Source: Nymphaea colorata
Lineage: Eukaryota; Streptophyta; Magnoliopsida; Nymphaeales; Nymphaeaceae
Direction: 5' to 3'
Assembly: GCF_008831285.2 (NCBI RefSeq)
Contig: NC_045141.1
Location: forward strand, 6,901,224 to 6,965,223
DNA: 64,000 nt
The stretch's first letter is position 1, and each line of letters opens with the position of its first letter. Below the pieces are notes generated by a model, which saw nothing but the letters and a program-made list of their open reading frames with translations, searched no databases and was not told where the DNA came from. Below, piece by piece: positions 11,295-48,560 of the stretch. A program made the position numbers and the translations under genes.

Positions 11295-14200
11295 TCACCG
11301 GGGACCAGAGAGCTCCATGGATTGAGTATCAAGACAGTCACCATCACCACCATAATCATCATCATCTTCATCGTGATCATCAGCCATCATCATCATTCTG
11401 TCATCATCAGAATGAGTGCCTGTGCTGATTAGTTTCTTGTTGCTGCCCTTCTTCTTTTTGTTGGTATTAGAATCCATAACGTTGTTATTACTGTTGCTGC
11501 TGTTGTTGTGAGAGGTCTCCCATTTGTGAGCCAGCCCATCTCCTTCCAACATCTTAACAACCTCTGACATCTTAGGCCTATGGGCAGGCAAGTATTGGGT
11601 GCAGAGCAAGGCCACCTGAACCATCTCACCAACCTCAATTCTGTCATAGTTTTCCTTCAAATCTTTATCTACTACCAATTCAACCTTATTCTCTTGGTGC
11701 ATTTTCCTAACCTGCAACAGGCTTCAAAACAAACCGATCAGCTTGACCAAGTCCAAGTTAATGACAAAATCGGGTTATACACTGTATATGATAAATCTAC
11801 AATTATAGTCAATCCCCACAATGCATTCTGCTCATCTTCTGAAAGTTATTAAATGATGAAGCAATTTCCAAGCGGATTGATTATGATTTCCCATTAATTA
11901 TATATAATATGACTTGATCTGCTCTTTTCCAACCCACCTCCCACTATGGATCCTACCCTAGCATTGATCTTTGAGCCCCATATGGGCTTATTATGCCCTT
12001 TTATCAATGTTCCCTGCAAGTACGGAACAAGAGGTCTGGAAGGGACAGAGAATTTTGAATGCAGCATTTGTAATTGAACAACTAAAATCAAGGATCAAAC
12101 CGTTCATTATGCCTGTCGTAGTATTCTCATGTTACTCAATGCAAAGTTCGAAAACAAGAGAGCCACTGGAGTCTACGGCAAAACGACAGAACTGTTCACA
12201 AGCAAACGATGTTTCTTTGCACACCAAACTTTTAGAAAAGTTCATAAAATAAAATAACTTGCAATTTTTCTTTTTTTTAACATGCACAGATCTGCTAGAC
12301 AGCATGGAATAGCATAGTTAGCAACACCAAGAAGGCTACTGAAAGTTACAAGTGCATACCCAGTCCAGCATTGCTCCTTTCTGATTTGCTGCTTTATTAC
12401 CAAAATCAAGCGCTGTGTGTCCAGAGATGAGCTCCAATAGGAGAATTCCAAATCCAAAAACATCTGTCTTCTCTGATGACTGCCCGGTAGAGAGGTACTC
12501 GGGAGCAATGTGGCCCACAGTTCCCCTAACAGCAGTTGTCACATGAGAATCAGTATGATCCATGAGCTTTGCTAAGCCAAAATCACCCACGATTGCTTCA
12601 CAGTAATCATCCAAAAGAATGTTTGCTGCCTTGACATCACGGTGGATGATCTTTGGGTCACACTGTTCATGCAGATAAACAAGCCCTCTAGCTGCTCCTA
12701 AAGCAATCCGCTTTCTCATGTTCCAATCAAGACTGGGTTTTGCTGTCCAACAAATAAATTTATTGTCAGAACCATCTATGCAAAGACTAAATGCTCTTTT
12801 AGTCTACTGGAGCTTGTCCCTGGGCTTAGAAAAAATTTGCATTTTGCACAATTTTCTGATCTATTAAGCACAGTATCACATCTTAACCAACTTACATCTC
12901 TACGGATGACATAAGCTTTTAAAACAGTTCTCAGAAAGAAAGTATAACACTGGAGTGGCCAGCCACACTCAGAATTATGTTTTTGTTTCTGTACACTTAC
13001 ATTGAGCATCAAATTATTAATATAGTCCAACTACAGTTATGTGCACTTAAGCACGAGAGTGTGAGGGAGAGAATTTACCCCTTAGCCTAGAAGCAACACT
13101 GCCATTGGACATAAAAGGGTAGATAAGGAGCCTTTCGGAAGGCGTAATGCAGAAACCAAGCAACCTCAAGAGATTTCTGTGAACAGCCAAACTGATCATC
13201 TCAATCTCAGTTTGGAACTGACTCTCACCATTATGACTACAATCCTTCAGTCTCTTGATAGCCACCACCGTTCCATCTTGCAAATAGCCCTTGTACACAT
13301 TCCCGAAACCACCTTTGCCAAGTATCCTCTTACTGTTGAAGTTATCAGTAGCTATTTGAAGTTCCCTAAAGCCAAATCTCTTCAGATTGCCCAAGCACAT
13401 CATTTCCTCAGCGTGGTTATGATCTGTATTTAAAGCTCAAAGATAATATAAGTTCATTATTGCTGCTTAACTTCTTCTTCTTTTTTTTCTGAATGGTCTG
13501 AAGTTAAAGAGTTAGAAAGTGAGAAAAGGACCAACCATAGTCATCCTGGATCATTTGCTTGCTCTGCTTCTTTTTCCACCATGCAACAAGAGCTAAAACA
13601 AATAGGGTTCCCAAAGTGCAACCAAGAGCAACTCCAAATGCAACAGCTGCTCTGTGACTCTTCTGCTTTCCTAGAACAAAAAAGAAAAGGAAAAAAGGAA
13701 AGAACTTAGAATTCAATATACCAAATTGTAGAAAGTCACATAAAACACAACAGTAGCCAAAGAAGAAGATGACCATAATGAGGGATGGAATTAGAGAAAA
13801 GGTACCTGGAGATGCGTTAGGAGGGGAATCAAGAGAAGAAGGCTGAATTGCAGCACAATATCCCTTAGAGCTGTTTCGGCATATTAGAACGTTGCCCTCA
13901 ACACTATCAGAAAACAAACGTATAAGAGAACCAGTAACTGAAAAAGGAACAAAACAAAGAAAACATTGTCGTACCTGAATGTTTTGGCTTGAACTGTTGG
14001 CACTGGTCCACTTAAATTGTTGAAAGATAGGTCCCTGAAACATCAATACATCCAAAATTCATTGGATCACCCAAAAACTATTAAGCTTTTGTATTTCAAC
14101 CTTTCATATCCAAGGCAAGGGATCGCAGAACTTTACAGAAGAGAAAGTTTTGGGACTTTAGCAAGAGAAACAGGGATCTCTCCACTCAAACTGTTATTGT

Positions 14201-21154: not shown

Positions 21155-22258
21155 CTGTTGCAGAAACATGCTAAAGTGAGTGACATGAAGCAATCTATAA
21201 TAATAAGTGGAAGCTTTATATGAGCAATTGTGCAGATGAATTTTAAATCTCCATGTTCTCAGATGTTTGAACGTAAAATTGACCAGAGAAACGAGTTCTA
21301 TGTAGTGGGTATGATAGGTGTCAATCTTTCAATTGCTGGAACCTTTCACATGAACAAGAATTTCATAACATTTCATAACTAATCTATACCCCACACAGTC
21401 TGCAAACCATAACAAAGGAACTACAATTCATGAAGAAAGTAGTGATCTGAACAATCCCACTTTGACTCAGATCATACAATGGCCTCCCGTAATCACCAAC
21501 GCTCCCTCTCTCTCACCGATGCCTCCAAAAACCAAGCAAGAGAGAGACAAAAACAGTTCAAATATAGAAAAAGAAGCAGGTCAATACCAGCTACACTAAC
21601 TAGAACAACGTAAATGCAACAGAAAAAGAGCTCCCATTGAAGAGCTGAACTGACAGCTTCCCACCAAATTCATACTAAAGAGCGGCTGAGAGAGATCGAG
21701 TTGCTGCTGAGAGGGTGGCCAAGCTTTCCGGGATTGCAGATAGCTGAGAGGCTGAGAGAGATCGATTTGGGCGTTTTGTCTTACGATGCTAAAGTGAGTG
21801 ACACAGCAATAGCAAGAGACTTATTTTGTCTTACGATGATCTTACAGTGATAGAAGCAATAGCAAGAGAGAAAGGGAGACAACGAGAGCAATGTTTAAAA
21901 ACAGAGAAAAAATCGATTTGGGCGTTTCTGAAAGGGATGCAGCGATGGAGAAACCCTTACTTGAGAGCGGCGACTGTGGCGTTGGCGAACCAGCGGAGGA
22001 GCGGCGACCGTGGCCGTGGAGGATGCTGCTTTTTCTTCCCGCCGGTGAGATGCCAAAGAAGAACAAGTTAGGGCAACAGTGAAAGGGAGAAAGGGAAGGC
22101 ATCAGAGAGCAAAAGAGAAAGGGAGAAAGAGAACCGGCAGAGGAGCGGCGATGGTGAGAGCGGCCTCTGGTGCGACCGTGAGAAGTTTTTGCGAGGGAGG
22201 AGGAGCTGCGGAGGGAGGAATTTGTTTTGATATGCGACGGTCACAAAGCATTTCGAGC

Positions 22259-22367
22259 GGGTGAAATTTCACCCACCCGAAAGTCCGAGCTGCAAGCTCG
22301 GACTTTTGAGCGGGTGAAATTTCACCCGCTTACTTATACGTTAAATGGGGTGAATTTCACCCCATTT
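22259..22367. repeat. Cluster of palindromes and a hairpin near the transposon right end
   Basis: There are four symmetric segments in 110 bases. The first is the 16-bp palindrome GGGTGAAATTTCACCC (22259-22274). The second is a hairpin with a perfect 12-bp stem and GCA loop (22280-22291 with 22295-22306). The third is a perfect 22-bp palindrome with the same core (22309-22330). The fourth is an 11-bp stem around ATT (22343-22367). A broken fourth version of the core, GAGTGAAATTTCAC, follows at about 22387. Related GTGAAATTT words occur just inside the left end. These look like repeated transposase-binding or fold-back subterminal motifs. Confidence 0.88.
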
Positions 22368-22458
22368 GATGCATTTTAGGTCAGGCGAGTGAAATTTCAC
22401 ATGCCCGTACCGTTTTTCCCCTCCCCTCTCATTTTATCTCAGCTATCAAACGGGGCCT

Positions 22459-22917: not shown

Positions 22918-23090
22918 TAGGGTGGAGATAGGTATGGGCAATTGCCCGGACAGAGCGTCAAAAAATACATATTTTTATATTGACTTTTTAAGGACATTTT
23001 TCCCATTAACATATTGATGCTGTTTAAAAAAATTAAAATTTATTACTAATGCCCCTTAGCCAGAAATTTCTGACTCCACTACTGCTAACA
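22918..23090. repeat. Short hAT-type MITE remnant, copy B
   Basis: Starts AGTAGGGTGGAGATAGG and ends TTTCTGACTCCACTACTG, so the ends are inverted and eroded. The interior GGGCAATTGCCCGGAC and GCCCCTTAGCCAGAAATTTC are shared in style with copies A and D. No clear 8-bp duplication. Confidence 0.5.
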
Positions 23091-23982: not shown

Positions 23983-24990
23983 GCATTCGCAACAAGCGTA
24001 CGCCGGGGGTGGACCCTACTATATGTTAGTAAAGTTTCAATGTTGACCTTAGTGAATGAAAAGGTATATATCCATATTTAATTGAATGTCCTTACTACAT
24101 ATATGTAAAGTTTCATAAATGACTTTTGTGTCAGAAAAGGTACATGTGCATATTTACTTGAATGCCTTTGCATTGCACGGTCGCAGCATATACGTACTTA
24201 ACCTTCACGTTGCATGCATTCTTATGCACGAAGGAAGGAAGACGGTCAGGAAGAAGAAAACAGGAGAGAGAGGTTCCTGGTGAAGGAAGGAATGAGAGAG
24301 GAGGTTGCCAGCAAAAAGCCTTGGCCTTGAAGCAGAAATGACAGGAATAACAACAAAAGAAAAGGACGGTGAGTTCACAATGATTTCACTATGGTTTTTT
24401 GTTCTCAGACATTAAATGAGAAAGGCAATGTAATGGCTTCTACAGGGTTTTTTTCGACCATTGGACATTCGAAGAAATCGAAAAAGCAATTTATGACGAA
24501 CTAAAGGCGAAGGTGATGGCATAGCTTAAAAAGGAAGAAAATGTCGACACAACAAGTAACAAGTGCATCTTTGTTTAGGTCGTAAATAATGTTACCGACG
24601 AAATAATGAGTGCATCCCAGTTCATGTGGTAGATAATGTTACGATGTAACAGGCTTGAGATAGTTTGCTTGAGATAAAAAAATCAAAATCATGGCATAAT
24701 AAATGCGTGAGATAATGACTTCTATGGATAACTTGATGCAATCCAATTTATTTCATTATACTTTGTAACCATTCCTCTAGTTGTTGATCAATGGAATAGG
24801 AGAAGACACATGGGTAAACAGAAACGAGATAATGCAAGCACGTAACGAAAGGTGCTTACGAAGTAATGAGATAACAGTGAGTCTACCACGAAGGCTAGGA
24901 ATGGTAACATATACAGAGATAACAATGAGCCTACCACTAAATGGTTTAAGATAAGGTCCGATCGATGGACTTTATGGGGAGATAATGTTG
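23983..24990. other. Left flank of the Mutator-like district
   Basis: Purine-rich stretch at 24230-24360, then many GAGATAATG-type words from about 24590 to 25040. The same word style dominates the tandem arrays after 28 kb. No terminal inverted repeat could be fixed. Confidence 0.4.
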
Positions 24991-24991
24991 A

Positions 24992-27860
24992 ATGTTATTT
25001 GATGGAAGGTATTTATGCATGAAACAAATAATTCATGAGATAATGTTAAAACGTTATCTATCGAGTGTATATATTATAGATGGCGTAGTGTATGAAATAT
25101 CTACATCATCAGATGATGAAATGATGTATCCTGAAGAACGTGCTCTTTCTGTAGGAATGGAGTTCAAGACGGAGGAAACTGAAGAATGTGGTCTTGTTGT
25201 AGGATTGGATCTTCCTACTATAGGAATGGAGTTTGAGATGGAGGATCTTGAAGAGCGTGCTCCTGCTGTACAGACGCAACATACAGTTTCTACAATTCTT
25301 ATGCTTTTAGCTATGGGTTCAATGTAAGGAAGGGTAGGATGGAGAGAAACACATAGTGCATGGTTGTGTGAAGGTTATATGCTCCAGTCCATTTGAAGTG
25401 CAGCAGGTAATACTGTTTCACGAAGCCCTGCTCTGGAAAAGTCATCTACATGTAGCATCAAGGTCATTCAAAAGAACCAACTAAAGTAACAAGAGAAAGA
25501 GCTTAATGGACATAAAAAGAACCTGTACCCTTAGAATTCACAAGCTTATCATGTGGATTTTCTGAAAATATTTCAATCTCATTCTTTTACGTTGGCAAAA
25601 GATGGTCCATCAGGGAACCTAACTCTTGCATGCTAGAAGAGAAGCGGCTCTTTTTGCATCCTCTTTTGAAGCACTTGATGGCCCCTCAACACAATGAATG
25701 GGGGCATTGGAAGGGAGAACCACGTGACAAGTGACACCATCCAAATCATCAAAATAAATGAACTCTGGGGCAGGATTAACAAAGATGGAAGAGATAAGTA
25801 ACATATTTAACCAAGCACAAAATTGATACATGGTGCGGTTGTTCTGTCAATTTGGAGCTAGGAAGGTGTCCAAATGAAAAATATTGTATTCGTGTAGTGG
25901 CGATCAACACAAACATCCATTGATACTTTATCGCATGAGCCACATGTTGTCGCATCACAAATTGTCATTGTCGCATGTTGAAATAAGCAAGCTGGCTGAT
26001 GGTGTAGGTATACTGCCAAGGAAGGCATATTACTGGTTTGTTAAGTAGAAAGTGGTCATGAGAATGTCCTATTCACAGACATGGATCATAAAAATCACTT
26101 GAGTATAAAAAGGATAGAATCAATGAAAGGAGGAGAAATTATGACATTGATCGAATCCATTCAGAAAAGATTAAGCAAAGACACAAGTTTCTACAACGCC
26201 ATTCAGATGGACAAGGATGGTTATGCTATAAATATCTTCTCGACAAATTTGAGGTCTAGCTTAGGCGATGTGCTTATTTTTGACACAACCATGGAGGTCA
26301 ATACCCATAGGTGGCCCTTTGCTCACTTTGTGGGGGTGAACCATCATTCCAAAAGTTGCATTTTGGCGGCCCATTATACTTTGATCAGACTACTGAGACA
26401 TTTGAGTGGTTGTTCAAGGTTCCGAGGCCATAAACGGGAAGCACCCCAAAGTTGTACTGACTAATGGTGACAATGCAATAGCAGCTGCAATGTTCTTTGT
26501 ATGGCCAGAAGCGCATTATCGTTTGTGTTTGTGACATATATCCAAAATGCAGCGAAGAACATAGGGCATGTAATGAATCAGAAAACTGGCTTTAAGGAGA
26601 GTTTTGCAAATTGTGCCATTAAGTGCGAAGATGGTGAGACGGTTGAATGTATGTGGACATAAATGATTGAAACATATAACCTATACAAAGAAAAGTGGGC
26701 ATTGGCATATAGAAGACAAAACTTTTGTGCTGACATGATAAGCACACAAAGAGGAGAAAGCATGCATGCTGCGCTGAAAAGGGGATTATACTTTTACTTA
26801 TAAATATGTCATTTCATGGAACATGACAGATTTTTGGATGATCTTAGTGACTATGAGCTTGAAAACAATGTCAAAGCATTTGTTTGTCACCCTCAAAGTC
26901 TCGGTATGAATATCTTTGAGCGAACTGAAGTTGTGTACACACCAATTGCATTTGAATGATTTAAGGAGGAGGCAATTCAAGCGACTAACTGTGACATAGA
27001 ATTACATTAACAACAAAGAAGCTGCTGTGTATATCATGTAATAAAAAGGGAGATGGATTCGACTAAGATCAATGATGGTTCATGAGCTACATCATCGAAA
27101 CAGGTGATGTCAAATATTCTTGTAAGGAATTTGAATTTAAAGGTATTTTGTGTTGTCATGCCCTACTCTCGATTGAGATTCGGGAACTGCCAGAGAGATA
27201 CATCCTAGGTAGATGGACCAAAAATGTAAAAATGGACTTAATGAAGATTTCTCTTGAAATTCCTTCCTATGATGTCAACTATCCCACAGCTTTTCTTGCT
27301 ATTAGCATCTGTGCAGGACACTGATGTATGTTACAAACCTAGCAGCAAAAAACGACCAAGCTTATGAACACATGATGTAGTTGGTGAATGTAGTTGTAGA
27401 GAACGTTTCAAATCTATACTGTGACAACAACGTGGCAATGAAAAGCCAACCAGAAGTAACAGGTCCTATCACCCAAAACTCCTTGAAGAGGAAGAAAAGC
27501 ATGGCTCTACTAATATGGTGTTCGATAATGTCATGGTGAAGATTGAAAAACACAATGACACCAGTCTATCGGTCACTGCTTTCAAAAGGAAGCCAGATAG
27601 GAGTTTGCATAGGACAAAAAGTGCCCTGGAGAAAAGAGGCAAGTCTAGGAAAATCAAGCAAGAAAATCGTCCTCAACAAGTTGATTATGTTTCATACACA
27701 AACAGTGCAGTTGAGACCTGCATGCCATCCACATGTATGCAAGATGTATATGATCACGGTGATTTTATGAAATTCTTGATAAGTTTCTTGTATTATACAT
27801 ATTATGTATGTTTAAACTTTAAGCACATTCTGATAATCGATTTTGTGTAATTGTTACCGT
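24992..27860 (+). pseudogene. FAR1/FRS-type Mutator-like (MULE) transposase, decayed
   Basis: The plus strand preserves the domain order of FAR1-like MULE proteins across broken frames. An acidic N-terminal piece lies at 25080-25327 (two VGMEF/IGMEF starts). The FAR1 DNA-binding region runs from about 25831 (RCGCSVNLELG, then KYCIRVVAINTNIHPL). The MULE core is at 26140-26345 (FYNAIQMDKDGYAINIFSTN, FDTTMEVNTHRWPFAHFVGV, NHHSKS), with the first catalytic aspartate in FDTT, and continues in other frames past 26400. The SWIM zinc finger is at 27107-27190 (YSCKEFEFKGILCCHALL). It is followed by PERYILGRWTKNVK and a basic C-terminal tail. More than five stops or frame shifts are present, so it is dead. 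Host FAR1/FRS transcription factors share this architecture, but those are intact. The decay and repeat context favour a transposon. Confidence 0.85.
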
Positions 27861-27999
27861 GCTGCAGGGATTTAGTTTATCAATCCCAATAGTACCCAAT
27901 TCTCTCAATGTATGATACAATAAATAATTTTGTAACAACCTTTAAGATGGAGACGCAATAATGTGATAACTACACACAAACCTGGTGCAAGAATGGATA

Positions 28000-28660
28000 T
28001 GAGAGTATCCGATAATGACAAGAAGGGCCTAAATAGATACATGAGAGTGAGATAACAATACATCTGCCAAGAAGACAAAAATAGAGCAGAGATGAATTAA
28101 TGCGATCACGACATAAAGGGCCATGCAAATAAATTAATGTGACAAAACAATGAGCTAACAACGAGTCTACATTAAAGAGAGATCATGATAATAGCAGGAA
28201 GGGCCTGAACGGATACGAGAAAATAAGATAACAACGCGTCTGCCAAGAAGATGATAAGAGAACGGAGACGAAATAATGTGATCACAACATAAAGGAATAT
28301 GCGTATAAATTAACATAATGAAACAATGAGATAACAACAAGTTTACATTAACGTGAGAACGTGATAACGACAGAAAGGGCCTGAACAGACACGAGAGAAT
28401 GAGACAACGACGCATTTGCCAAGACTATGATAAAAGAATGGAGACAGACTAATACAATCACAACATAAAGGGTTGTGCAAATAAATTAATGGAACGAAAC
28501 AATGAGATAATGACGAGTCTACATTAACGAGAGAACACAATAACGACAAGAAGGGCCTGAATGGATATGAGAGAATGAGATAACAACATATATGCCAAGA
28601 AGACAATAAGTAAATAGAGACAATGAGATAACAACGAGTCTGCCATACCAGTTTATTATA
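28000..28660. repeat. Tandem array, period about 176 bp
   Basis: The word AAGGGCCTGAA (with variants) recurs at about 28024, 28199, 28375 and 28551, giving steps of 176-178 bp. Each unit also carries GAGATAACAACG, TCTGCCAAGAAGA and a CACAACATAAAGG block. About 3.7 copies, with a decayed further copy near 29220. Many units contain GATAA words. Confidence 0.85.
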
Positions 28661-28990
28661 TGAGGGAACCACATGCGATATGTACTATCGGCCGCTCTTT
28701 ATGACACACATTTGGCTGCATTTAGTGAAGCCATCAATTATTGTAGCTACATTAAATGAATGTAGTTTATAACGCACACCACACAACGTCTGAGCAACAT
28801 TCCTCCCTCTACTCTATTGCGACAGCACAAAAAATGGAAACGTAACACCATGAAATGTATTGTGATATGTGGGTGCATTAAATGTGGCATGGTGGGAACA
28901 ATTTGGATTATACTCGTAAAATACTTTGACACTGTATGGATTGCAACAATACATATCAATACACAACACAAATAAGATAACAATGGAAGA
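28640..28990. repeat. Dispersed repeat, first copy
   Basis: Begins near TACCAGTTTATTAT, contains CATGCGATATGTACTATCG, CATTTGGCTGCATTTA, ACACACAACGTC and a later GGTGCATTAAATGTGGCATG block. The same ordered words recur at 31855-32100 and 32210-32460. Confidence 0.8.
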
Positions 28991-29479
28991 TGATAAGTTA
29001 TCGATGAGACGATTTAATGCGATGGCAACAAAATAATGTGATAATGCAACTACAGGATTTATTATACGATTGCTTATCTCACACACATACTATAGGAAGG
29101 GCTGTGTGAATTAGATAACAATGGAATTCATGATAAATATGGACACTAAATATGCAATAAATTAACGTAACGATACAATGACACAACGAGTGTATAATAA
29201 TGATAGAATGTGATAATGACAGGAAGCCTGGAACAATTGCGAGAGAATGAGATAACAATGCATCTGCCTAAAGATGATAAGCAAACGAAGACAAATGCGA
29301 TAAGCACACTTATATGATTGTTGCGTTTACAATTGCATTAATTAAAAGAAAAGGTTACAATGATGCAAGAATTAATAGAAATGGTTACAAAGATGATATT
29401 ATTCAAATTTCAGAACATTTACTTACTTGAAGCCAATTTCCAATAGATATTCTATTACTATTGGTAACATTAGCTTGGG

Positions 29480-30530
29480 TAAGGTAGATTTCTTTCCTAA
29501 CGTTATCTCCTACATAAATTTCATCATGAACACACCGTAGTCATAGTTGTTTCTTTGCTGTAGACATTTTTCCTGGTAAAAGTTTGTATTCATCCAACGT
29601 TTTGGATGCCGAAGACATGTTGGAGACAATATTTCTGCAAAATAACCAAAACTTATTAAGGAAATAAAAAGGAGTTATCCTAATAGTCTAAAGAGGTTAA
29701 ACTGCACACCAGTCTAGAGGCCTTCTGCAATTTGGTAGTCATCATAGCTTATGCATGAGTCATATATCTGTACTTGTTTTTTAGCATTGTGACATACAAC
29801 ACCCAATGTGCCTTCTCCACCCACACAAAAGGAAATTAAACCTAAAATAGATGGACGTTAGACAACAGCTAGATTAGAGTAACTAAGAGCAATAGATTTA
29901 GGAATCTATAGAAAGAGGAACAACCATTTCAACATCAGTGATGGATTGGTTCTTAATTTTCGAAACATTTTCTATGACATCTGTAATCATAGCCGCAATA
30001 TCATCCATTAGTGAAAACAACACTTGTTGTTAAACATTCGTCAGTTTGATCAATACTAATCACAATGTGAATGTTACTTAATGGAATAAGATGAAGGATA
30101 TGTACCATGAGATCCTATCTTATAGGATACCTACCAAGTCCTAGACTCTGATGTGTACGCTCTACAAAGTCAACAAAATAATTGAGACTAATATTCATTA
30201 CTTGCTTGCAAGGGAGGAAGACTTCAATGTAAATAGAGAGTAGATCATCCCTAAGTTCTCTCAAACGTGTCTTGGACTCACCAGCTGGTTGCTGGACTTG
30301 TGGGCTGCTTTGCTAGACTCACTGGCTCTTTTCTGGTCGAACATCTTTTGGATTCGCCCACAGGTTTGGTGGCATCATCGGCAGGCTTGCTAGCATCGCC
30401 GGCTGCTTTTCTGGTTGAACACGTCCTTGTTGTTGCAATGCTAGGCAAACTTATGGTGTTGATGGTTTGTTTATCTCTCTGCATGGAGTCTCTCTTCATT
30501 TCTACCTCAATTTGCACTAATCTATTCTAA
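29480..30530 (-). pseudogene. Ulp1-like (C48) protease fragment of MULE type, decayed
   Basis: On the minus strand, frame-broken blocks keep the order of a Ulp1/SENP-type cysteine protease. A lysine/threonine-rich lead is at 30278-30517 (RTCSTRKAAGDASK). A helical block follows near 30130-30270 (ELRDDLLSIYIEV...YFVDFVERTHQSL). The histidine motif WVEKAHWVLYV is at about 29790-29820, then YDSC, and the cysteine box is NNYDYGVFMMKFM at about 29515-29553. In active enzymes the cysteine box is D-C-G; here it is D-Y-G, so the catalytic cysteine is gone. Such protease genes are carried by several plant MULE families, placed tail to tail with the transposase, which fits its convergent orientation to the FAR1-type remnant about 1.6 kb away. 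Confidence 0.72.
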
Positions 30531-30779
30531 ACCACCTCTTTTGTTATGGGAAAACACATGAAAATATCACTCCCGCCGATGAGCCAACATCTGTTTTGGG
30601 TTAATGATGTTGATTTATTTTCAAAAGTTATGTAAATTGTCATGTTCTCCTATAACAACAGTACTAACACTTATGTTCAATGCTTGAGCAGCGCTAATAC
30701 TGCACAAAACGGATTATCTCATTTATGATATATGCATATGATTGTCATATATATATATGTGTGTAACAACAATATTATC

Positions 30780-31800
30780 TCATCCATGAAGTAAACATAT
30801 AATTGTCATATACATATATGTAAGAATGATATCTAATTGACATGTATGTCCATACCAAGCTTATGGTCATGTTTGAGCATCAGAGTACTGCTTGAAAGAT
30901 ATATATACACGTATGGTTTTCATATGTGCACAATCGATCAATAATAGTGATGTTTATGTCACATTTTGATCATTACAAATCATATATTCAAATTAGATAT
31001 AGATAAATGACAACTAATTGATGTGTATGACCATACCAAGCTTATGTTCACGTTTGAACATCGGTAGTACTGCTCAAATATACATATATAAACATATGGT
31101 TTCTATATATGCACAATCGATCAATGACAATGGTGCCCATATCAAATTTTGATCATTGCAAATCATATGTTCAAATTAGATATAGATACTTGAAAACTAA
31201 TTAATGTGTATATCCATACCAAGCTTATCTCCACGTGTGAGCATCAATAATACTGCACAAACATATATACACACATATGGTTTTCATATGTGCACAATCG
31301 ATCAATGATAACAGTGCTTATGAGAAATTGCGATCATTGCAAATCATATGTTCAAATTAGATATAGCTAAATGACAACCTAATTGACATGTATATCCATA
31401 CTAAGCTTATGTTTACATTAGAGCATTGTATGGATATGTGCACAATATATACACATATGGTTTTCATATGTGCACAATTGATCAATGATAACAATGCTTA
31501 TGTCACATTTGGATCATTGTGAATCATATGTTCAAATTAGATCTTTGTTAAATGACAACCCAATTGATATTAAGCTTATGTTCACGTTTGAGCATCGATA
31601 GTAATTCTCAAAGATATATATACATATATGGTTTCCATATGTGCACTACTAATCAATGATAATGGTGCTTATGTCACATTTTGATCATTGAAAATCATTT
31701 GTTCACATTAGATCTTAGATAAATGACAACTTAACTGACGTGTATATCGATATGTACACAATTGTTTGATAGTACTGCTCATCCATATGATAGTCACACT
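30780..31800. repeat. Tandem array, period about 180 bp
   Basis: The word GCACAATCGATCAAT (with variants) recurs at about 30928, 31111, 31292, 31472 and 31641. Each unit also contains ACCAAGCTTATGTTCACG, a TACATATATA run, CATATGGTTTTCATATG and CATTTTGATCATT...AAATCATATGTTCAAATTAG. At least five copies. Not related in sequence to the neighbouring arrays. Confidence 0.9.
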
Positions 31801-31854
31801 ACAACTTCAAAAATGAAAATCTATTTTTGTAGAAGCATAAAATAACGCATTCGG

Positions 31855-32100
31855 CTATACCAGTTTATTATCTGAGAGGGAACAACATGCGATATGTACT
31901 ATCGCCTATTGTTTTTGACACCCATTTGGCTGCATTAAATGAATGCAATCGATAAAACATAACACACAACGTCCAAGCAACATTCTTGTGCACTATCATG
32001 TGTTCATTAGCAACAAAAAACATGTAAATGTAGCATTGTGATTTTTACTATTGCATGCGGGTGCATTAAATGTGGCATGGCGGGAACAATTGGGACTATA
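31855..32100. repeat. Dispersed repeat, second copy
   Basis: TACCAGTTTATTATCTGAG, CATGCGATATGTACTATCG and GGTGCATTAAATGTGGCATG in the same order as at 28640-28990. Confidence 0.82.
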
Positions 32101-32199
32101 TGCATAAATGCCTAAACGGATATGAAAAAATGAGATAACAACTCGTCCGCCGAAAGGCAATAAGTAAACAAAGGATTCGTTATATGATTGCTTATCTCA

Positions 32200-32470
32200 C
32201 ATGCAATCAGCTGAGTAAGAACAACACATGATATGTACCATCAGATGTTGTTTCTGATACCAATTTGGCTGAATTTAATGAAGTCATCAATTGTTGCAGC
32301 TGCACTAAATGAACGTGGTCAATGACACACAACACACAACATCCAAGCAATATTTTTATGCACTATCGTGTGTTCATTCAGCAGTACAAAACATGCAAAT
32401 GTATTGTCACATGCAGGTGCACTAAATGTGGCGACTTGAACAATTTGGACTACATTCATAAATACAAGAG
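32200..32470. repeat. Dispersed repeat, third copy
   Basis: ACACATGATATGTACCATC, CCAATTTGGCTGAATTTAAT, ACACACAACATCCAAGCAAT and GGTGCACTAAATGTGGCGAC in the same order as the other copies. Confidence 0.78.
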
Positions 32471-32499
32471 AGGCAGCATGTAATATCTCATTTCAAAAG

Positions 32500-33165
32500 G
32501 TGATGATAATGAAGAAGGGGAAACGTAATTTGTTCAATGATGATATAGATAGGATTGTTCATGAACTCAGCCCAAAGAAATGGATTAGCAATATCGTAGG
32601 TATTATCTCATTAACGCAACTGTTAGGGAATATGGTAGGTGGATCATTTATATAGTTTGTCTTTTCCTCACAATTTTTGCAAGATGCAATGGAGTTAATG
32701 CAACAAAGACTTGTGAATGAAAAGCGCTGCATTCTCAATCTTGTTGTCATAATAGTTTACTTTTTTAAATAGATTTATAGCTTCTTTGACCTATGACATT
32801 CTTTATGTTCTTCTATCTTGATGTAAAGAGTGCAATCCATCGACAGCCCTTCGGTTGTGGTTTCATGCATGCTTATGCTTTCTGACCTATTGCTGAACTC
32901 GTTTGAAGTGGTTCTACTTCCAACCTTGTGGGAAAAGTGCCATAATTGGGTATTATACGTTTTCAACATGCAGAACAAAGCTTATTTATACTACAATTCA
33001 ATGCAAATGTATGATCCAATACTGCATGATTTGTGGTTCATGAAAGAATCCTTAAAGAGTTAGTGCAGAATCAACACGATTCGGTGGCATTTTTTTCATA
33101 GGAAGGAAGCTCCCCACCAAAACAATGGCTACAATTGTGGTGTTTTCATCATCAAATACACATAA
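32500..33165 (+). pseudogene. Second Ulp1-like (C48) protease fragment
   Basis: On the plus strand, 32830-33063 is open and contains VVLLPTLWEKCHNWVLYVFN, the usual strand-loop carrying the catalytic histidine (here HNW rather than HW). It is followed by NKAYLYYNSM in the aspartate position, where the expected D is replaced by N. After a frame break, NNGYNCGVFIIKYT (33121-33162) gives an intact cysteine box (N-C-G), then a TAA. Upstream, 32509-32590 has KKGKRNLFNDDIDRIVHELS. Orientation is opposite to the 29.5-30.5 kb copy. It is probably from a second MULE insertion or a rearranged copy. Not functional. Confidence 0.75.
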
Positions 33166-33329
33166 GAAATTTACAATAACAACGAACCTATTTGTATGAG
33201 ACAAATTCGTGCAATAACACAACTGCATGATTAGTTTTACGATACACTCAAATAAAATCATGTCCAAAAAAACAAGATAGCTACTCAGACAAATTAAATG
33301 AAACAACAACACTGTATGAAATTCTTTTA

Positions 33330-35720
33330 CAATAGGAAGGCACCTACTAAAAGGCGATAAGCACTCGGATGAAACAAATTGTGATAATGCATTTGCAGGA
33401 TTCGTTATACGAGTCACTCAAATAAAATCGTGTTTATAAGGATGTGATACCCACTTAAAAAAATTAAACGCAACAACGACAAAATGCGACAATAACATTG
33501 TATCAAGTAGTTGTTTGCGGCAACGACACTATATCAAGTAGTTTTATGACAACAAGGCACTAAGGGAATAACATATCCACTCGAAAAAATGCAATGCAAC
33601 AACGACAATTGTAGGCACTTCTTTTACGATAAAAAGGCACCTACTAAAAGGCGATAAGCATTCAGAAAAAACAAATTGCGATAATGCCAATTGCAATATT
33701 CGTTATACCATACACTCAACTAAAATCACGCTTATAACGATGCGATATCTACTCGAAAAAATTAAGTACGACAACGAAACTGTATCTAATGGTTTTATGA
33801 TAATAAGACGATTACTAAGAGAATATGAAACCCACTCGAAAAAATGTAATGCGACAACGAGTATGGTAGGCACTTCTTTTACGTTAAAAAAGCATCTACG
33901 AAAAGGCGATATGCACTATGACAAAACAAATTGCAATAATGTTAATTGTAATATTTGTTACACGATACACTCAACTAAAATCGTGCGTATAACGATGCAA
34001 TACCCACTAAAAAAAATTAAATGCGACAATGAAACTGTATCTAGTGATTTTATAATAACAAGGCACTTACTAAGAGAATGTGATACCCACTCGAAAAAAT
34101 GTAATGTGACAATGACAATGGTAGGCACTTCTTTTACGATAAAATGGGGCTTATTGAAAGGCGATAAGCACTCCGACGAAAAAAATTGTGATATCACCAA
34201 CTGCATTATTCATTATACAATACACTTAACTAAAATCATGTAATGAAGCAATAACCACTCAAAAAAATTAAATGCGGCAACAAAAAAATGGAACAATGAA
34301 ACTATATCTAGTGGTTTTACGATAATAAGGCGCTTACAAAGAGGATGTGATACCCACTCGAAAATATGTAATGCGATAATGACAATGGTAAGCCCTTCTT
34401 TTACGATAAAAAGGTGTCTACTAAATGGCGATAAGCACATCGACTAAACAAATTGCGATAACGCCAACTGCAATATTCATTATAAACTTGAATCATACTT
34501 ATAATGACATGACACCCACTCGAAAAAATTAAATGTGATGATGATAAAATGCAGCAACGAAAACTGTATCCAGTGATTTTATGATCCAAAATGCTTACTA
34601 AGAGAATGCGGTATCCACTCGGAAAAATGTAATGTGACAATGATAATGGTAAGCACTTCTTTTACGATAAAATGGCAACAACTAAAAGACGATAAACACT
34701 CCGACGAAACAAATTGTGATAACGCCAACGGCAATATTTGTTATATGAGACACTCAACTAGAATTGTGCTTATAACAATACAATACTCACTTGAAAAAAT
34801 TGAATGCAACAACAACAAAATGGGACAATGAAACTGTATCCGGTGGTTTTACAATAACAAGGCATTTACTAAGGTAATGTGATACCCACTCGAAAAAATG
34901 TAATATAACAGCGACAATGGTAGGCACTTCTTTTACGATAAAAAAGGTACCTACTAAAAGCCAATAAGTACTCTTACGAAACAAATTGTGACAACATCAA
35001 CTGCAATATTCAGACGGGATACCCATTCAAAAAAATGAAATGCGACAATGACAAAATGCAACAACGAAACTGTATCTGATGGTTTTACGATAACAAGGAG
35101 CTTACTAATAGTATGCGATACCTACTCATTAAAATTTAATGTGACAATGACAATGGTAGGCACTTCTTTCATGATAAAAAGGCGCCTACTAAAAGGTGAA
35201 AAGCATTTCGACGAAACAAGTTGCGATAATGCCAACTGCAATATAGTTATACGATACGTTCAACTAAAATCATGCTTATAACGATGCGATATCTATTCAA
35301 AAAAATTAAATGCGACAACGACAAAATGTGACAATGAAACTGTATCTAGTGGTGTTACGATAACAAGGCACTTACTAAGAGAATGCGAAACCCGCTCAAA
35401 ATAATGTAATGTGACAACAACAATGGTGGACACTTCTTTTACTATAAAAAGACACCTACTAAAAGGTGATAAGCACTCCGAAGAAACAAATTGTGATAAC
35501 GCCAACTGCAGTATTCGTTATACGATACACTCAACTATAATCGTGCTTATAAGGACGCGATACACATTCTAAAAAGTTAAATGCGACAACGACAAAATGA
35601 GACAATGACAAAATGCGCCAACAAAACTGTATCCAGTGGTTTTACAATAACAAGGCACTTACTAAAGGAATGCGATACCCACTTGGAAAAATGTAATGCG
35701 ACAATGAAACAACAATGCGT
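33330..35720. repeat. Tandem array, period about 260 bp, two-part unit
   Basis: The word GTAGGCACTTCTTTTACGAT (with variants) recurs near 33611, 33866, 34121, 34387, 34649, 34920, 35157 and 35426, giving steps of 237-271 bp, two of them exactly 255. Each unit is built of two related halves that both start GATACCCACTCGAAAAAAT, so this is a higher-order repeat. One half contains GAAACTGTATCTAGTGG, the other GGCGATAAGCACTC and ACTGCAATATTCGTTATACG. About nine copies. The 255-bp copies keep one frame open across units (33740-34243), producing a repetitive peptide that I do not accept as a gene. Confidence 0.92.
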
Positions 35721-35729
35721 TGAAGAAAG

Positions 35730-36660
35730 AATGAAATAATATTAGCTTGTTATAGATCATTCTTATGAACAAAAGAATAATGTTTGTAATCAATAAAAAA
35801 AATAGGATTAAAAAAAAAAGATTGTTCTCTATCCTGTCGTGACAAGATCTTCTTCAACTCAGAAATTCTTGAGTCAAATTGGCAACATGATCAATCATTG
35901 ACTTTGTTATTGTGACTAAGCTCTCTTCCACGGGGTGGCTAGGACTCTCGGCTACAGTCTCCACAGGCCCTAACATCTTTTGCTTCATATCTCCCTGCCC
36001 ATATGATCCTGGCTCTGTTTACTGTGAATCTCCCTCTGACCAGCATCCTGCGCTTGAGATGATAATGATGTTGTTGTTGCTGATGGCGATCCAAGTTGGG
36101 GGCACATCTAAACAAGTTTCAGTTACCCGAGAATGAAGTACATCCCAATCCTGGTCACAGTACCTTGGTGCAAACCCATTGCTATCATAAACAATGGCAA
36201 CTTCACCACCACAATCCCAATTACGGAGCTCTGTCTAAGACAAAAGTTGTGAGTCAACTCCGACCCTAAAAGCACTCTTGTTCCTTAATCTCTTCTAGGG
36301 ATGGGGTGGCTGTGGAATTGACTGGCGAAGACCACACTGCAAGAAGACTTGGCTTTTGTGTTGTATTTCTGCTTCATTCATGCAGAACAACCACAAGTCT
36401 TTACACGACAACTGAAAAGCTTTCTTGATAATCCGATAATTTGTTTCGCCACCAATGTATGGTCTAAACAATACCTACACATAAAAATGAAATAATCATT
36501 ATTACACAAGTATTCCAGCGTTAATATAAAACACAATTTACTATACATATCTAAGCCATATGTAGATTCGATATGATCAACCTAGATGACTCTGCATCAT
36601 TGTAAACTCTTGGACTGATACCTCTCCACTGTGCATGTAATGGATGAACAATTGGAAATG
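35730..36660 (-). other. Possible decayed coding sequence, unidentified
   Basis: On the minus strand, short protein-like runs occur with stops between them. Examples are RPYIGGETNYRIIKKAFQLS near 36420-36470, LRNWDCGGEVAIVYDSNGFA near 36170-36235 and PTWIAIS near 36090. They could be part of the MULE neighbourhood or of another transposon. I do not recognise the family. Confidence 0.25.
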
Positions 36661-36886
36661 GACACTCGACAATGGGTTTAATAGAAGGTATGTATTCCCA
36701 CATCCTGAACTATCGATAAAACATAGATACAAGCATTATAATATGATAGATGATCATCTGACACAAATAAATTTGCATCATGAAGATACTATCCATACCT
36801 GCAGGAACAACCAACATCCAATGGATGCAACCCCAGTCTTTCTCTCACACACACACAGATTATATATATATATATATGTACTATAT

Positions 36887-37440
36887 GTTCCCAAATAGTT
36901 AAACTCAAAATCTGCCACTAAAAATGAGCAATTGGAGAGGGAGGCAGGCAGTGAGGGGGATGCGCGACCTTCCCCTTCTCCCTGATGTGACAAGAGGCAT
37001 GACCCCACCAGCCCAACGCTTGTTGCATGTCCTTCGTTTTTTCTAAATTTTTATTAAAAATATGTTGGCCATTTGAATGGAAGGCCCACACTGCAAATGT
37101 AGGTTTGACCGCGTCTTAACTTCAACAAAGACGTGTGTGAGTATATATATATATATATACTGTCTGTCAGATGTTCCCAAATAGTTAAGAACTCAAAATC
37201 TGCCACTAAAAATGAGCAATTGGAGAGGGAGGCAGGCAGTGAGGGGGATGCGCCGACCTTCCCCTTATCCCTGATGTGACAAGAGGCATCACCCCACCAA
37301 CCCAACGGTTGTTGCATGTCCTTCGTTTTTTCTAAATGTTTATTAAAAATATGTTGGCCATTTGAATGGAAGACCCACACATCAAATGTAGTTTTGGCCG
37401 CATCTTAACTTCATATATATATATATATATATATGTTGTA
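36887..37440. repeat. Direct duplication of about 286 bp
   Basis: GTTCCCAAATAGTTAA starts at 36887 and again at 37173. The following about 250 bases are nearly identical, including GGAGAGGGAGGCAGGCAG, CCCTGATGTGACAAGAGGCA and AATATGTTGGCCATTTGAAT. Both copies are bordered by (TA)n runs. No TG...CA ends or primer site, so this is not an LTR pair. Confidence 0.93.
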
Positions 37441-39412: not shown

Positions 39413-41450
39413 TTTAGTTGAACATTCTATATTTTTCAAGTCACTTTTTGGTGTTGAAGGCTGAAAATAAGCTGCCTTCCTGAAACCTCCTCCCTCGTGT
39501 CTCCTTTTCCGGAACGGATGTAACCAGTAAACAAAGGAGACCAAATTAAGAGACTGAATGAGAGAGAAAAGCTAATGAGGGAGGAAAGGCATGGAAGGAA
39601 GATGCTTAATTTGTATACATGGTTGAAACTAACACCACAGTTCTCAGTTCCTTTTCATTTCATTCAACCACTTGGTATCTGTTTGTACAATCTAAACACT
39701 CTATCAATAGTGAAAGCCTGCCTACAACAGAAAAGGATTTCAAGGCTGAGGTTGAGATCTATACATCCATTGATCGAATCTCAGTTTTTTATTTCTTTTC
39801 TTTTTTCTTTTACTTTTTTCCGACTAGTCGGCTAGGGTTGAACCCTACTGATTTATTTTTTTCATGATATGTATGCAATGAAGATATACACATGTAAGGA
39901 GGTTTCTGCTCAAGTAGTCATGTTCCACTTTGAATCGAGCTATAAAAGTCAACTAGCGTTCTTATCTGACACATACATGAACCACCTAACACAGAGAGTG
40001 TCTCAACAATTCATTCCTCTCCCTTACGGTAAAAGCCTGCGGGAAAGAGGGCTTCTTAACTCTATTATTACAAAAAAATCAGGAAAACAGTCGTTACAAA
40101 GCAAGAAAGGATGAGATACAGTCAAAAGGACAAACCATCAGAGTCTCCTGCCCAAGATGATTCCATTCCGAGATGGAATTTACAAGAACATGCACAAAAA
40201 GAAGGTTAATCACATCCTCAACCGCCTCGCATTTCTTATCGGGAACTAATTATATGTGGATAGGCGGTTCATACCCATCCCCTAAGTGGGGAATTCATTG
40301 TAAAGTTGCTGTTGGAGTAGACAAGGCTTTCTGCATCAAGGAAATCGAGAAACAGTATTCTCCATGACATTGAGGAGAAAGGGGTAGCTGTAATAATATA
40401 CTATGAATATACACCAATAGTTAAGACAGATTCATAAAACAAAACACACTGTTAGCATTCTTATTGCCAAACACCACCTAAAGTCCTAAAGTTTCTGTTT
40501 GTACATCTTCATTGGGGAACGAATTGCACATAGTTCAGACCATAAAAATCAGTAGATCAATGGAGTTCAGAAACTTGTGATCATGATAAAGAATCAGAAT
40601 CAGTTTGCAGTCTAGGCTGGGATCAGATTCTTCGATCAATAAGATGGAAATTATTCTAATAGGGAAGATGGAGGAGTGAGACTGAGACAAGACATGAGGG
40701 TGTCCTCTCCGTCATAATTGCTCACTTACTCTTTAAACTAGAGGCATCCAAGATGTTTAGATCTAGTTGCAGATATATACGAAAGAAAAAAGATGGGGTA
40801 TTTTAGAAATTTTGTATAAAATTTGTACTTTTTGAACTTTTAATTTTTTTAACCCCTTTTTTATCCTTGTGAAAGGCCCCCTTTTTACCTTAAATCAAGG
40901 GCAATTTAATCATTGTATACCTCAGGCATAATTTTTTATTTTTTATTTTTGGTGCACATAGCTGTGCTCATAACCAGCTCAACAAAATTATTCTATCATT
41001 ATAGAGATAAAGAAGCTTAATTTTTGAAAAATTTTGGCCCTCCATACCATTCTCCTGAATGTGTCTGTTTCCTTCGCAGAAACGCCAGCCCATGCACAAA
41101 TAAAAACTTGCAATTTCGTTTGAACCATCTACAGGTCAAGGAGAAACAATATTTCACCATCAATATAAAAAAATAAAGTAAAAGACACATGTAATATAGG
41201 AGGCCTTCACACCCAAATTGGGGAAACTCTAGGAGGAACATCAACAAAAGAGGGCAACCGAGATAAAAGCCAAGAAGAAGACAAATCTCTCTCTCCCCAC
41301 AAAAAAGAGAAGACAACAAAAACCAGTGACACATTGATAGATGATACCCCAATTTCAAAGAAAGAGTACTCACCACAAATGGAAGTGAAAACCTTCGCTT
41401 TTGTTCTTTCTTTCTGGAAAAGGAGACAAATGCATCTCGAAGGAATGTCA
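39413..41450. other. Intergenic DNA, nothing firm
   Basis: Several open frames of 60-90 codons at 39.58-40.37 kb show no conserved motif or splice-consistent neighbours. The minus frames at 41.02-41.45 kb are continuations of the CACTA remnant region without recognisable domains. Confidence 0.4.
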
Positions 41451-41459
41451 CTATTATAA

Positions 41460-42930
41460 GTAGTTATGAGAACACCTCTTAGTTCCACTGTTCCATTAAA
41501 AGCATGCTTGTCTAGGCGAAACGCGTCAATTGGTAAAAATGTATGTCGATCCATATAACAAAATTTTGACTGTTCTTCAACCAAATAGAGTTGGTTTCAG
41601 ATTGACATTAACGACACCAATATACCTTCAGTACTTTATCTTGATAAATTAGCATATGCCAAAAAAAAAATCATTTATTATCCATAATAGTGCAGAACGT
41701 ATTTTGAATGTTTCTTTTTTTAAGCATCATAAGTGTTTACTCCAACCCATAGACCTTGCAATTCATCAATAAGTGGCTATAAATAGATATCTACTTCATT
41801 TATAGGGCTTAATGGGCCATAAATCAATAAACTCAATATTATGTGCCTTTTTTCATGATCAACTATGAAGGCAAATTATATGGTATAAGAACCACTGGTT
41901 ATGTGCTATGAATGATACTGATTGTTCTGAGTGAATTAAACCCATCAGATGCTAAACCAAGATTTATGTTACGATGATCAAAAGAAAAAGAAATGTTTTT
42001 TCTTATCAAATGATTTTCAAACAACAGAATCTACTGAATGTAGTAAAATGTCATTTTTGATGTGTTCCTCATCATGACGTGACACATAAGAAGTTTTTTT
42101 TGGATGACATAAACAGCTTTTGAAGTCTTAGAATTAAAAGAAAATGCTACATCACTTTCATAGAAATTTTACTTCTTTCTCCTTGTACCATATCTATGTC
42201 ATCATTCTAACTCTCATCTTCAAAAACTTTCCATCTTGAAGCACCACAAATGTAAGAAACTTCTTTTTTTTTTCAATGACTTTCTAATATAACATGCACA
42301 TTTGAACAAGCAATAACATTATTGTATTTGAAACCTAAATCGCCAATAATATTTTTCACCTTATAACAAGATGGTAGCAACAAATTTCCATATGGCAGGA
42401 TTTCTTTTAAAAATTTTAACAACATAGTAAAACTTTTATTACTCCACCTATCTACACACATTATTTGGTAAAGCCAAACAACATATGACAATTTTGAGAA
42501 TTTGCATCCTAGATATAAGTCATGAATCATGATCAATATCATTTAAAATTTCATAAAATGTATTTGTCTCTTCATTGGTTCTATTGAAACACTCACCACT
42601 GTTTCCATCATTGTCAACCTCAATGGTAGCATTGAAAAATGTATTTGCCAACATTTCTTGAATCTCAGAATTATTTTGATGTTGTGATGATCTTGTTCTT
42701 ACTACATAGTCTGTTGACATAGGCTCCTCATGATAAATTCAATTTGTGGAATTTTCACAAAAACCATGACAAATGATGTCATCTAAAACATCTTCTAGAG
42801 TCTTCAAATAACAATTTTTACACTTCACACATGGGGATTTGATAATCCGGTTTACCATTGACTTGTTTTAGATAGCAAAGCGCAAAAAATCTTTAACCCC
42901 AGCCACATGTTTTGTACTTAACTTATTCAT
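41460..42930 (-). pseudogene. CACTA (En/Spm) TNP2 transposase, N-terminal and central part, decayed
   Basis: Reading down the minus strand, the CACTA transposase order is clear. The zinc-binding lead has KSPCVKCKN and ICHGFCENS (42.85-42.74 kb). Next is KLSYVVWLYQIMCVDRWSNK with SFTMLLKFLKEILPYGN (42.5-42.36 kb) and NIIGDLGFKYNNVIAC. Then NINLGLASDGFN and PVVLIPYNLP follow near 41.95-41.88 kb. Finally KFCYMDRHTFLPIDAFRLDK with AFNGTVELRG is at 41.57-41.47 kb. Stops and frame shifts separate these blocks. The C-terminal half (DUF4218/DUF4216-like) is absent here, but a matching C-terminal piece lies at 53.7 kb in the opposite orientation. CACTA ends were not located. Confidence 0.88.
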
Positions 42931-47251: not shown

Positions 47252-47956
47252 TGTTGCCGGCCGACTCTGGCCCGGCCAAGCCACTAAAAGGTGATGCTGC
47301 TTGGCCAACTTAGGCATAGTTGGAAGGTATATGGGATTCGATCGCACGCCGAGTCTAGCAGAAAGTAATGCACGTGGAATGTGCAGCGCGGTGGTGCGAC
47401 GACAAGGCGTTTCAATGCATCAAGATCAGCGGTCCCTTTGAAAGTGCAAGTCCGCCGTTGGGGAATCTAGTGGGTTCCTCACGCGTAGTGTTTGGATACA
47501 CAAGGGGGTGCGTGTGGGTTAGGGGCAATTCCCCCAGTGAGCGCATACGCTGCGTTCCACAACCGCGTAGAGTCACGCGGGGTTGAGCAAGTGAATGCTC
47601 ATCGTCGAGTAGGGCGATGGTCGGTCACCTTACTTAATGACATATAGTCGTCAACTGGCTTCGGCTGGGGACTTCCTCCCAAGGGAAGTCTACCCCCACC
47701 CAGATTTCGTTTGGATGTAGATAGGCACTTAGAGGAATGACGAAGTTCTGACAGGGCCTCATAACCACGGCTTGCCGATGGCCGACAATAGGATAAACCT
47801 GGGTGATGGTGTGCCGAGTGCTTAGCACTCATCGTCTAGTCCACAGTCCCATTTAAAAGATGAATGCTTCCGCTAGCTTAAGAGAGAGACGGCTGGCCGA
47901 AGGCTTTGGGGAACGCCTTCGGCGCCGCGCGGGCTGGAGAAACTCGGCCCGTGACA
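47252..47956 (+). repeat. 5' LTR
   Basis: TG...CA-bounded repeat, closely similar to 48561-49268. It contains the marker words GCACGTGGAATGTGCAGCGC and CCAAGGGAAGTCTACCCCCA. Confidence 0.88.
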
Positions 47957-47958
47957 AG

Positions 47959-47970
47959 TGGTCTCAGAGC
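47959..47970 (+). promoter_or_regulatory. Primer binding site (initiator tRNA-Met type)
   Basis: TGGTCTCAGAGC against the usual TGGTATCAGAGC, 2 bases after the 5' LTR. Confidence 0.85.
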
Positions 47971-48548
47971 AGACGATTTCTCGAAGGGAACTTGAAAGAT
48001 GAGAACGCTGTGATGATAACAAACAAGTAGTTCAAAGAAAAATGTTGGCTTGTTTGGTGCCCTAAGGGTTCGGGCATGTTCGTCGGACACTGGTTCAAGT
48101 GACCGCATTGGTGTTGGCCAGATGGAGATCACACGTTCCGAAGATGGTGTCTGGGCGTCAGGAGCAGAAGGGCCAAGAGAGCCGCTCACTGAGACAGATA
48201 GGATAAGACCCGACGTGGAAAAGGATTGAGGGCAAGTGCCCTTAGTGTTGACATGTCTCGAGAAATGAGCATGTGCACGGATTGGCAACACGGCTTGGAA
48301 GTTTGAAACTTAGTGGTCGCCGGAGATGTTCCGAACTTTACTAAGGAAAAAGTGCAAACAGTGATAGAAAAGTGGGATGATGCTAAGGAATGGACTAGAG
48401 GCAAAACACCCGATAAGGCAGCTAGCCACGACGTGACGGGTGTGTCAACCAGACGAACAGATGAAGGCTGAGTTGAAAAGAAATCAAGGGAACGGTAGCT
48501 GAACTTCTATCACTCGGGATAGAGTCACTAAGGACAGTGATGATTTTG

Positions 48549-48560
48549 GCGGTGGGAGAA
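48549..48560 (+). promoter_or_regulatory. Polypurine tract
   Basis: GCGGTGGGAGAA immediately before the 3' LTR. It primes plus-strand synthesis in LTR retrotransposons. Confidence 0.75.

Follow-up and report, generated by a model that had tools for sequence, protein, structure and literature searches.

Organization of the locus

A composite, transposon-derived block was analysed at about 24.6-36.7 kb of a 64,000-nt window of Nymphaea colorata DNA (assembly GCF_008831285.2, NC_045141.1 positions 6,901,224-6,965,223); all coordinates given here are window positions. Four kinds of parts were found in the block: a Mutator-like element (MULE) transposase, two relics of Ulp1-like (C48) proteases, three tandem arrays, and a direct repeat referred to as repeat A. 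The non-coding parts are rich in one short word, GATAA, on the plus strand. With somewhat less than even confidence, we favour the reading that the block is one decayed large MULE without recognisable terminal inverted repeats (TIRs), and that its arrays most likely were docking sites for an anti-silencing protein. All evidence for the block comes from this single copy within the window. Domains were called with Pfam profiles against the family cut-offs (MULE 27.6, SWIM 19.6 and C48 20.7 bits), and the arrays with Tandem Repeats Finder (TRF). The features of the block are listed below with their strand and the analysis on which each call is based.

24591..25100 (+): GATAA cluster of the form GAGATAATG, non-tandem, upstream of the transposase (word counts)
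25878..27321 (+): broken MULE transposase, probably Jittery/FAR1 type (Pfam MULE and SWIM)
28011..28640 (+): 176-bp tandem array with GATAA words (TRF)
28630..28920 (+): direct repeat A, copy 1 (BLAST)
28940..29310 (+): stretch rich in GATAA that holds one more 176-like unit, at about 29149-29303 (BLAST, counts)
29489..30526 (-): remains of a broken Ulp1-like (C48) protease, lying tail to tail with the transposase (Pfam C48)
30825..31752 (+): 181-bp tandem array, weak in GATAA, unit with dyad symmetry (TRF, profile)
31841..32462 (+): direct repeat A, copies 2 (31841-32108) and 3 (32110-32462) (BLAST)
32827..33190 (+): second broken Ulp1-like (C48) protease relic (Pfam C48)
33191..35720 (+): 255-270-bp tandem array of nine units, richest in GATAA/GACAA words (TRF, profile)
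36307..36471 (-): candidate relic of a plant mobile domain (PMD), below the cut-off (Pfam PMD)

Transposase and protease relics

The transposase reading frame is broken by stops and frame changes, and the MULE domain (PF10551) is divided between two frames. Of this domain, the C-terminal half (26424-26546) scored 29.9 bits as a separate piece and 26.6 bits in a second run, just under the cut-off; the N-terminal half (26270-26368), in the other frame, was matched weakly at 18.7 bits (17.9 in the second run). A SWIM zinc finger (PF04434) lies C-terminal to the MULE domain at 27118-27165, with 21.1 bits and above its cut-off. This combination of a MULE/DDE transposase domain with a C-terminal SWIM zinc finger assigns the relic to the Mutator superfamily. 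A preliminary description of the window had proposed a FAR1-type MULE transposase on the plus strand; the MULE and SWIM matches bear out the family and the strand, but no FAR1 domain was found N-terminal to the core in three frames of 25340-26050, a part which is heavily decayed. The transposase is probably of the Jittery/FAR1 type, judging from motif wording that we take to be typical of this group (an FDTT...NHH region, and a SWIM region followed by an RWTKN stretch).

Two C48 relics, one on each strand, were found downstream of the transposase, which is where a protease-carrying (ULP-carrying) MULE is expected to have this domain. The minus-strand motif (29489-29584) scored 23.2 bits in a 173-aa piece and 20.4 bits, below the cut-off, in a 73-aa piece; its alignment has Tyr at the position of the catalytic Cys. 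Translation showed a charged, repetitive stretch upstream of this motif, where no family scored above its Pfam cut-off. The plus-strand relic (32899-33171) scored 28.7 bits and had gone unnoticed before. It was aligned to SENP1 and SENP2, the closest solved relative being SENP2 (E 8.2e-06), and it retains the Cys motif but has Asn at the position of the catalytic Asp and an additional residue after the His. Each relic therefore lacks a different catalytic position, Cys on the minus strand and Asp on the plus strand. The tail-to-tail layout of transposase and Ulp1-like protease in the preliminary description holds for the minus-strand relic; the second protease lies further downstream on the same strand as the transposase.

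The two relics are far diverged from each other (33% identity over 52 aa, E 2e-05). Their divergence and opposite strands are compatible with a nest of several old elements, in which a Jittery-type MULE had contributed the minus-strand protease and a second element, either a MULE or a CACTA transposon, had brought the plus-strand protease and the last array. A CACTA tnp2-like relic lies to the right of the block (15.2 bits, sub-threshold), and ULP1 is also borne by grapevine CACTA families, according to a figure legend (PMC2528002). This nest is a serious possibility, although we consider it unlikely on balance: GATAA is found on the same strand in compartments on either side of both proteases, repeat A and 176-like sequence stand on either side of the minus-strand protease, and TTGTAGTG, the expected right end of a CACTA element, is absent from the window. 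A CACTA element enclosing the second protease was considered separately; CACTACAA occurs at 14924 and 31797 and TTGTAGTG nowhere in the window, so that such an element is unsupported.

Tandem arrays and direct repeat A

The three satellite arrays of the preliminary description were recovered by TRF with periods of 176, 181 and about 255-270 bp. The 176-bp array (28011-28610) has 3.4 copies with 77% matches, and the 181-bp array (30825-31752) has 5.2 copies with 78% matches. For the last array, TRF reported 8.0 copies of 255 bp at 33516-35589, and a profile of the unit recognised nine units over 33313-35672. The 181-bp unit has an internal dyad symmetry, its profile matching both strands. A basic period of about 88 bp common to the arrays was considered, but only the 176-bp array showed a lag at 88, and a weak one (z 2.7). 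The upstream GATAA cluster (24591..25100) has no strong autocorrelation (top z 2.6). None of the array sequences had a match elsewhere in the window at E 0.001 (BLAST).

Repeat A links the two sides of the minus-strand protease. Copy 1 (28630-28920) is 68% identical to 31841-32108, and the slightly longer segment 28555-28920 is 67% identical to 32110-32462 (BLAST). Copy 3 starts with 176-like sequence, and the alignment between the 176-bp array and repeat A has a z of 8.6, its score being reached by none of 40 shuffles. Moreover, the separate unit at about 29149-29303 is 73-76% identical to the 176-bp units (BLAST). Thus 176-like and repeat-A sequence flanks the minus-strand protease on both sides in the same orientation; these linking repeats had been missed previously. 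All BLAST matches inside the block are direct (E up to 0.001, simple repeats dropped).

The last array was also considered as a present-day coding array. In one plus frame of 33191-35720 there are 26 stops, the mean in shuffled sequences being 61.5 (1% point for the best of three frames, 44), an open frame of 223 aa lies at 33572-34243 (+), and the periods found for this array by TRF are multiples of 3. This candidate was rejected, as the differences from the consensus are spread evenly over the codon positions (0.099, 0.126 and 0.112), only 2 of the 21 gaps have a length divisible by 3, and no family scored above its cut-off in the four pieces searched.

Distribution of the GATAA word

GATAA was counted as the plus-strand word and TTATC as its reverse complement, in compartments drawn after inspection of the sequence. 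Six non-coding compartments (6351 bp), among them the region upstream of the transposase, the 176-bp array with its neighbour and the last array, contain 63 GATAA against 8 TTATC. The three coding relics (4730 bp) are at the background level with 6 GATAA and 7 TTATC; the rest of the window, outside 24001-37420 (50580 bp), has 74 and 58, respectively. Within the block, the word is thus confined to the non-coding parts. Expected counts were derived from a first-order Markov (dinucleotide-based) model. The upstream cluster has 10 GATAA (1.9 expected) and 1 TTATC (0.5 expected); the 176-bp array (27900-28640) has 12 (3.9 expected) and no TTATC; 28641-29300 has 8 (2.0 expected), with 9 counted in 28940-29310; and the last array has 25 (6.7 expected), again with no TTATC. 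The preliminary description had GATAA-rich words running from before the transposase through the 176-bp array into the last array. This is correct for the core GATAA, but the longer forms AGATAA and GAGATA are missing from the five units of the last array in which they were counted.

The word was also ranked among all 1024 5-mers over four compartments, with counts taken per unit in the arrays; scoring every 5-mer and counting per unit guard against the post hoc choice of a word and the repeated counting of one unit. GATAA ranked first by plain sum, minimum and capped sum. Among 1000 control quadruples, 2 reached its score with any 5-mer by the capped sum and 5 by the minimum. By a scan statistic, GATAA is densest over 24632-36719, an interval that holds 73 of the 147 occurrences, with a log-likelihood ratio of 35.3 (maximum of 40 uniform controls, 10.4). 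Fifteen of the 739 5-mers scanned outscored GATAA, most of them microsatellite words.

Plant I-box and GATA-factor sites have GATAA as their core. The clusters might therefore be sites for host factors of this kind that drive transcription of the element, or subterminal sites for the transposase itself, as in En/Spm. Such a role would agree with the presence of clusters ahead of the transposase as well as in each outer part of the block. We regard it as distinctly unlikely, since the sites lie on one strand and occur in the interior as well as near the ends; those of En/Spm lie near the ends in both orientations.

Points weighed against a single element with functional arrays

Several results speak against one element with working arrays. 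No TIRs were recognised at the block edges, so that the long TIRs of a TIR-MULE are missing. Short inverted pairs of 25-36 bp were found, none of which joins the edges. In the wider flanks, the best inverted pair (22969-23052 with 41094-41174, 69% over 86 columns, 18 kb apart) is outside the block and borderline, its score being reached by 1 of 100 shuffles; it could represent the old ends of something larger or be due to chance. Matches of the size of target site duplications were at the chance level, with 12, 4 and 1 of 9, 10 and 11 bp against control means of 15.0, 5.5 and 1.4 (200 control pairs). Long TIRs and 9-11-bp duplications, both of which had been suggested as marks of the outer ends, were accordingly not confirmed. 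Furthermore, neither DUF1985 nor DUF287 was found near the proteases in the decayed pieces searched.

The word itself also has weak points. The 181-bp array is little enriched (5 GATAA against 2.8 expected). In the first, uncapped form of the 5-mer test (plain sum), 37 of 300 control quadruples reached the score, with microsatellite words leading, and the statistic was changed afterwards. Among the units of the arrays, conservation of the GATAA columns does not significantly exceed that of the other columns (P 0.12 and 0.16; for the 181-bp array, 0.88). Helical periodicity reportedly matters for the sites bound by VANC anti-silencing proteins; no 10.5-bp phasing of GATAA was detected in the four compartments tested. 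The known VANC motifs are not enriched in 24590-35720, where YAGTATTAY has no occurrence and its reverse complement 2, and AGTTGTMC has 1 occurrence and its reverse complement none.

Finally, the word may be common to the arrays by descent and not by selection. The 176-bp array and the whole last array align with a score of 81, reached by 1 of 200 shuffles, a weak likeness; when the comparison is restricted to positions 33191-34400 of the last array, the alignment is no better than chance (8 of 40 shuffles). Two further scores were each reached by 1 of 200 shuffles, namely 70 for the neighbouring stretch 29040-29310 against the whole last array and 60 for the upstream cluster against the 176-bp array. 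The 181-bp array is unlike both the 176-bp and the last arrays (134 and 168 of 200 shuffles, respectively). When the GAYAA words were masked, which also lowers the power of the comparison, the likenesses fell to the chance level (57 of 200 shuffles for the 176-bp against the last array, 38 for the neighbour against the last array, and 134 for the upstream cluster against the 176-bp array); therefore, it is the words that carry the likeness. Remote common descent of the 176-bp array, its neighbour, the last array and the upstream cluster is possible. If true, it would favour one element and weaken the case for a function of the word.

These likenesses, together with motif columns that are not clearly better conserved, are what would be expected if the arrays had grown from one or a few seeds in or beside a dead MULE, with GATAA functionless and either inherited from the seed or due to an A-rich strand. 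Such an origin appears rather improbable to us, slightly more so than a nest of elements: the likeness is lost with the words, GATAA exceeds the dinucleotide-based expectation even in the array-free region upstream of the transposase, and no match to the arrays was found elsewhere in the window at E 0.001.

Proposed mechanism

A single, old, protease-carrying MULE of about 12 kb is our best reading of the block, favoured but unproven. It is preferred because the GATAA domain spans 24632-36719 and because repeat-A and 176-like sequence occurs on both sides of the minus-strand protease; the lengths of multi-copy Jittery-like families in grapevine (11.9 and 14.4 kb) also point to it. On this reading, all parts would have moved together as one element. 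The proposal of the preliminary description that the arrays belong to one very large element is thus upheld by the word domain, by the same-orientation repeats and by the grapevine lengths, but not by the ends, where TIRs are missing and duplication-sized matches are no commoner than chance.

Because their layout is the same in kind as that of the VANC targets in VANDAL elements, the arrays are read as former docking platforms. Under this model, the non-coding parts would have been expanded by tandem duplication into several arrays, which would have kept one short word, GATAA and its variants, on one strand. The word-rich arrays would then most likely have served as docking sites for a DNA-binding protein encoded by the element, possibly the product of a protease-domain gene. 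The bound protein would strip silencing marks, so that the element could be expressed; the present copy is broken. Both the binding of GATAA by a protein and the effect of that binding are proposed here by analogy with VANC.

A broader conjecture is that Jittery/FAR1-type MULEs share VANC-like anti-silencing or have evolved it independently, the protease-domain protein of the element reading GATAA in arrays that are otherwise little alike within one 12-kb element. This is doubtful at present. The block offers a testable case for motif-loaded, satellite-like arrays being working parts of large MULEs beyond the VANDALs of Arabidopsis. Arrays of this kind would help to explain the kilobases of tandem repeats found in some giant DNA transposons, and the way in which some plant satellites are seeded.

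Other features of the window

At the right side of the block, the PMD match (36307-36471, minus strand) remained sub-threshold, scoring 15.5 bits (E 0.0098) and 15.6 bits (E 0.0091) where the cut-off is 34.9. PMD, often in antisense, has been recorded for plant MULE groups in the cited part of a MULE survey (PMC6446971). Immediately to the right of the block, a 289-bp sequence occurs twice in tandem (36861-37413, 92%), with a TA run heading each copy. To the left, a short palindrome is present at 22256-22416, with 36-bp arms that are 92% complementary, a 3-bp spacer and a further partial inverted copy.

The CACTA (En/Spm) tnp2-like relic lies at 41210-42738 on the minus strand; its Transposase_21 match at about 41.5 kb is below the cut-off of 28.6 bits, and the adjoining open reading frames, which have no Pfam hits, are presumably tnp2-like. 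A small, GC-rich element of the long terminal repeat (LTR) type occupies 47252-49268, with repeats at 47252-47956 and 48561-49268 (92.8% identical) around a 604-bp interior. Just inside its repeat is TGGTCTCAGAGCA, which we take to be like a primer-binding site, and the element is probably a non-autonomous LTR retrotransposon. Other pieces include a hAT transposase with RNase-H-like and C-terminal dimerisation domains (3975-4529, plus strand), an open frame with a copia-type gag domain (61859-62434, plus strand, 46.8 bits), and a protein kinase piece (12336-12803, minus strand, Pkinase 84 bits), probably from a receptor-like kinase gene. The gene and transposon content of the window by itself suggests plant DNA.

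Comparison with known systems

The grapevine Jittery-like families are similar in size. The multi-copy families Jitvine-1 and Jitvine-2 are 11.9 and 14.4 kb long and are listed with no TIR, and some of the Jittery-like families carry a ULP domain downstream of the transposase (PMC2528002). The block resembles Jitvine in its Jittery-type transposase (as judged here), in the lack of a TIR and in total length; it differs in having two protease relics on opposite strands. Motif-bearing arrays are a feature of the block, and none are mentioned for Jitvine in the sections of PMC2528002 used here. Among the literature matches listed, with their titles and the beginnings of their abstracts, there was no Jittery-type element with motif-sharing arrays.

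The KAONASHI (KI) MULEs of Arabidopsis are non-TIR elements whose ULP domain is oriented opposite to the transposase, according to the parts cited of PMC2528002 and PMC13317346. Similarly, the block has no recognised TIRs and one ULP domain reverse to the transposase. However, the transposase of KI-MULEs is of the mudrA type, whereas that of the block looks Jittery/FAR1-like, and its second ULP domain is on the transposase strand.

The VANDAL elements provide the functional parallel. In the sections cited, VANC proteins are described as binding short motifs in non-coding tandem repeats, which lie within introns and ahead of the transposase (PMC5735166); the repeats vary between related elements, and VANC binding leads to loss of DNA methylation (PMC5735166, PMC10398659). 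For VANC21, the probes from coding regions were without the motif (PMC5735166, PMC10398659), and a Ulp1 domain is present in some VANC genes (PMC13317346). Like these elements, the block has a single short motif both ahead of the transposase and in tandemly repeated non-coding sequence, although it is weak in the 181-bp array. Its motif is GATAA and not YAGTATTAY or AGTTGTMC, its transposase is of a different type, DUF1985 and DUF287 were not detected in its decayed pieces, and it is known from its sequence alone. The block is a variant form of an established kind of plant transposon, and its link to anti-silencing is testable and moderately interesting.

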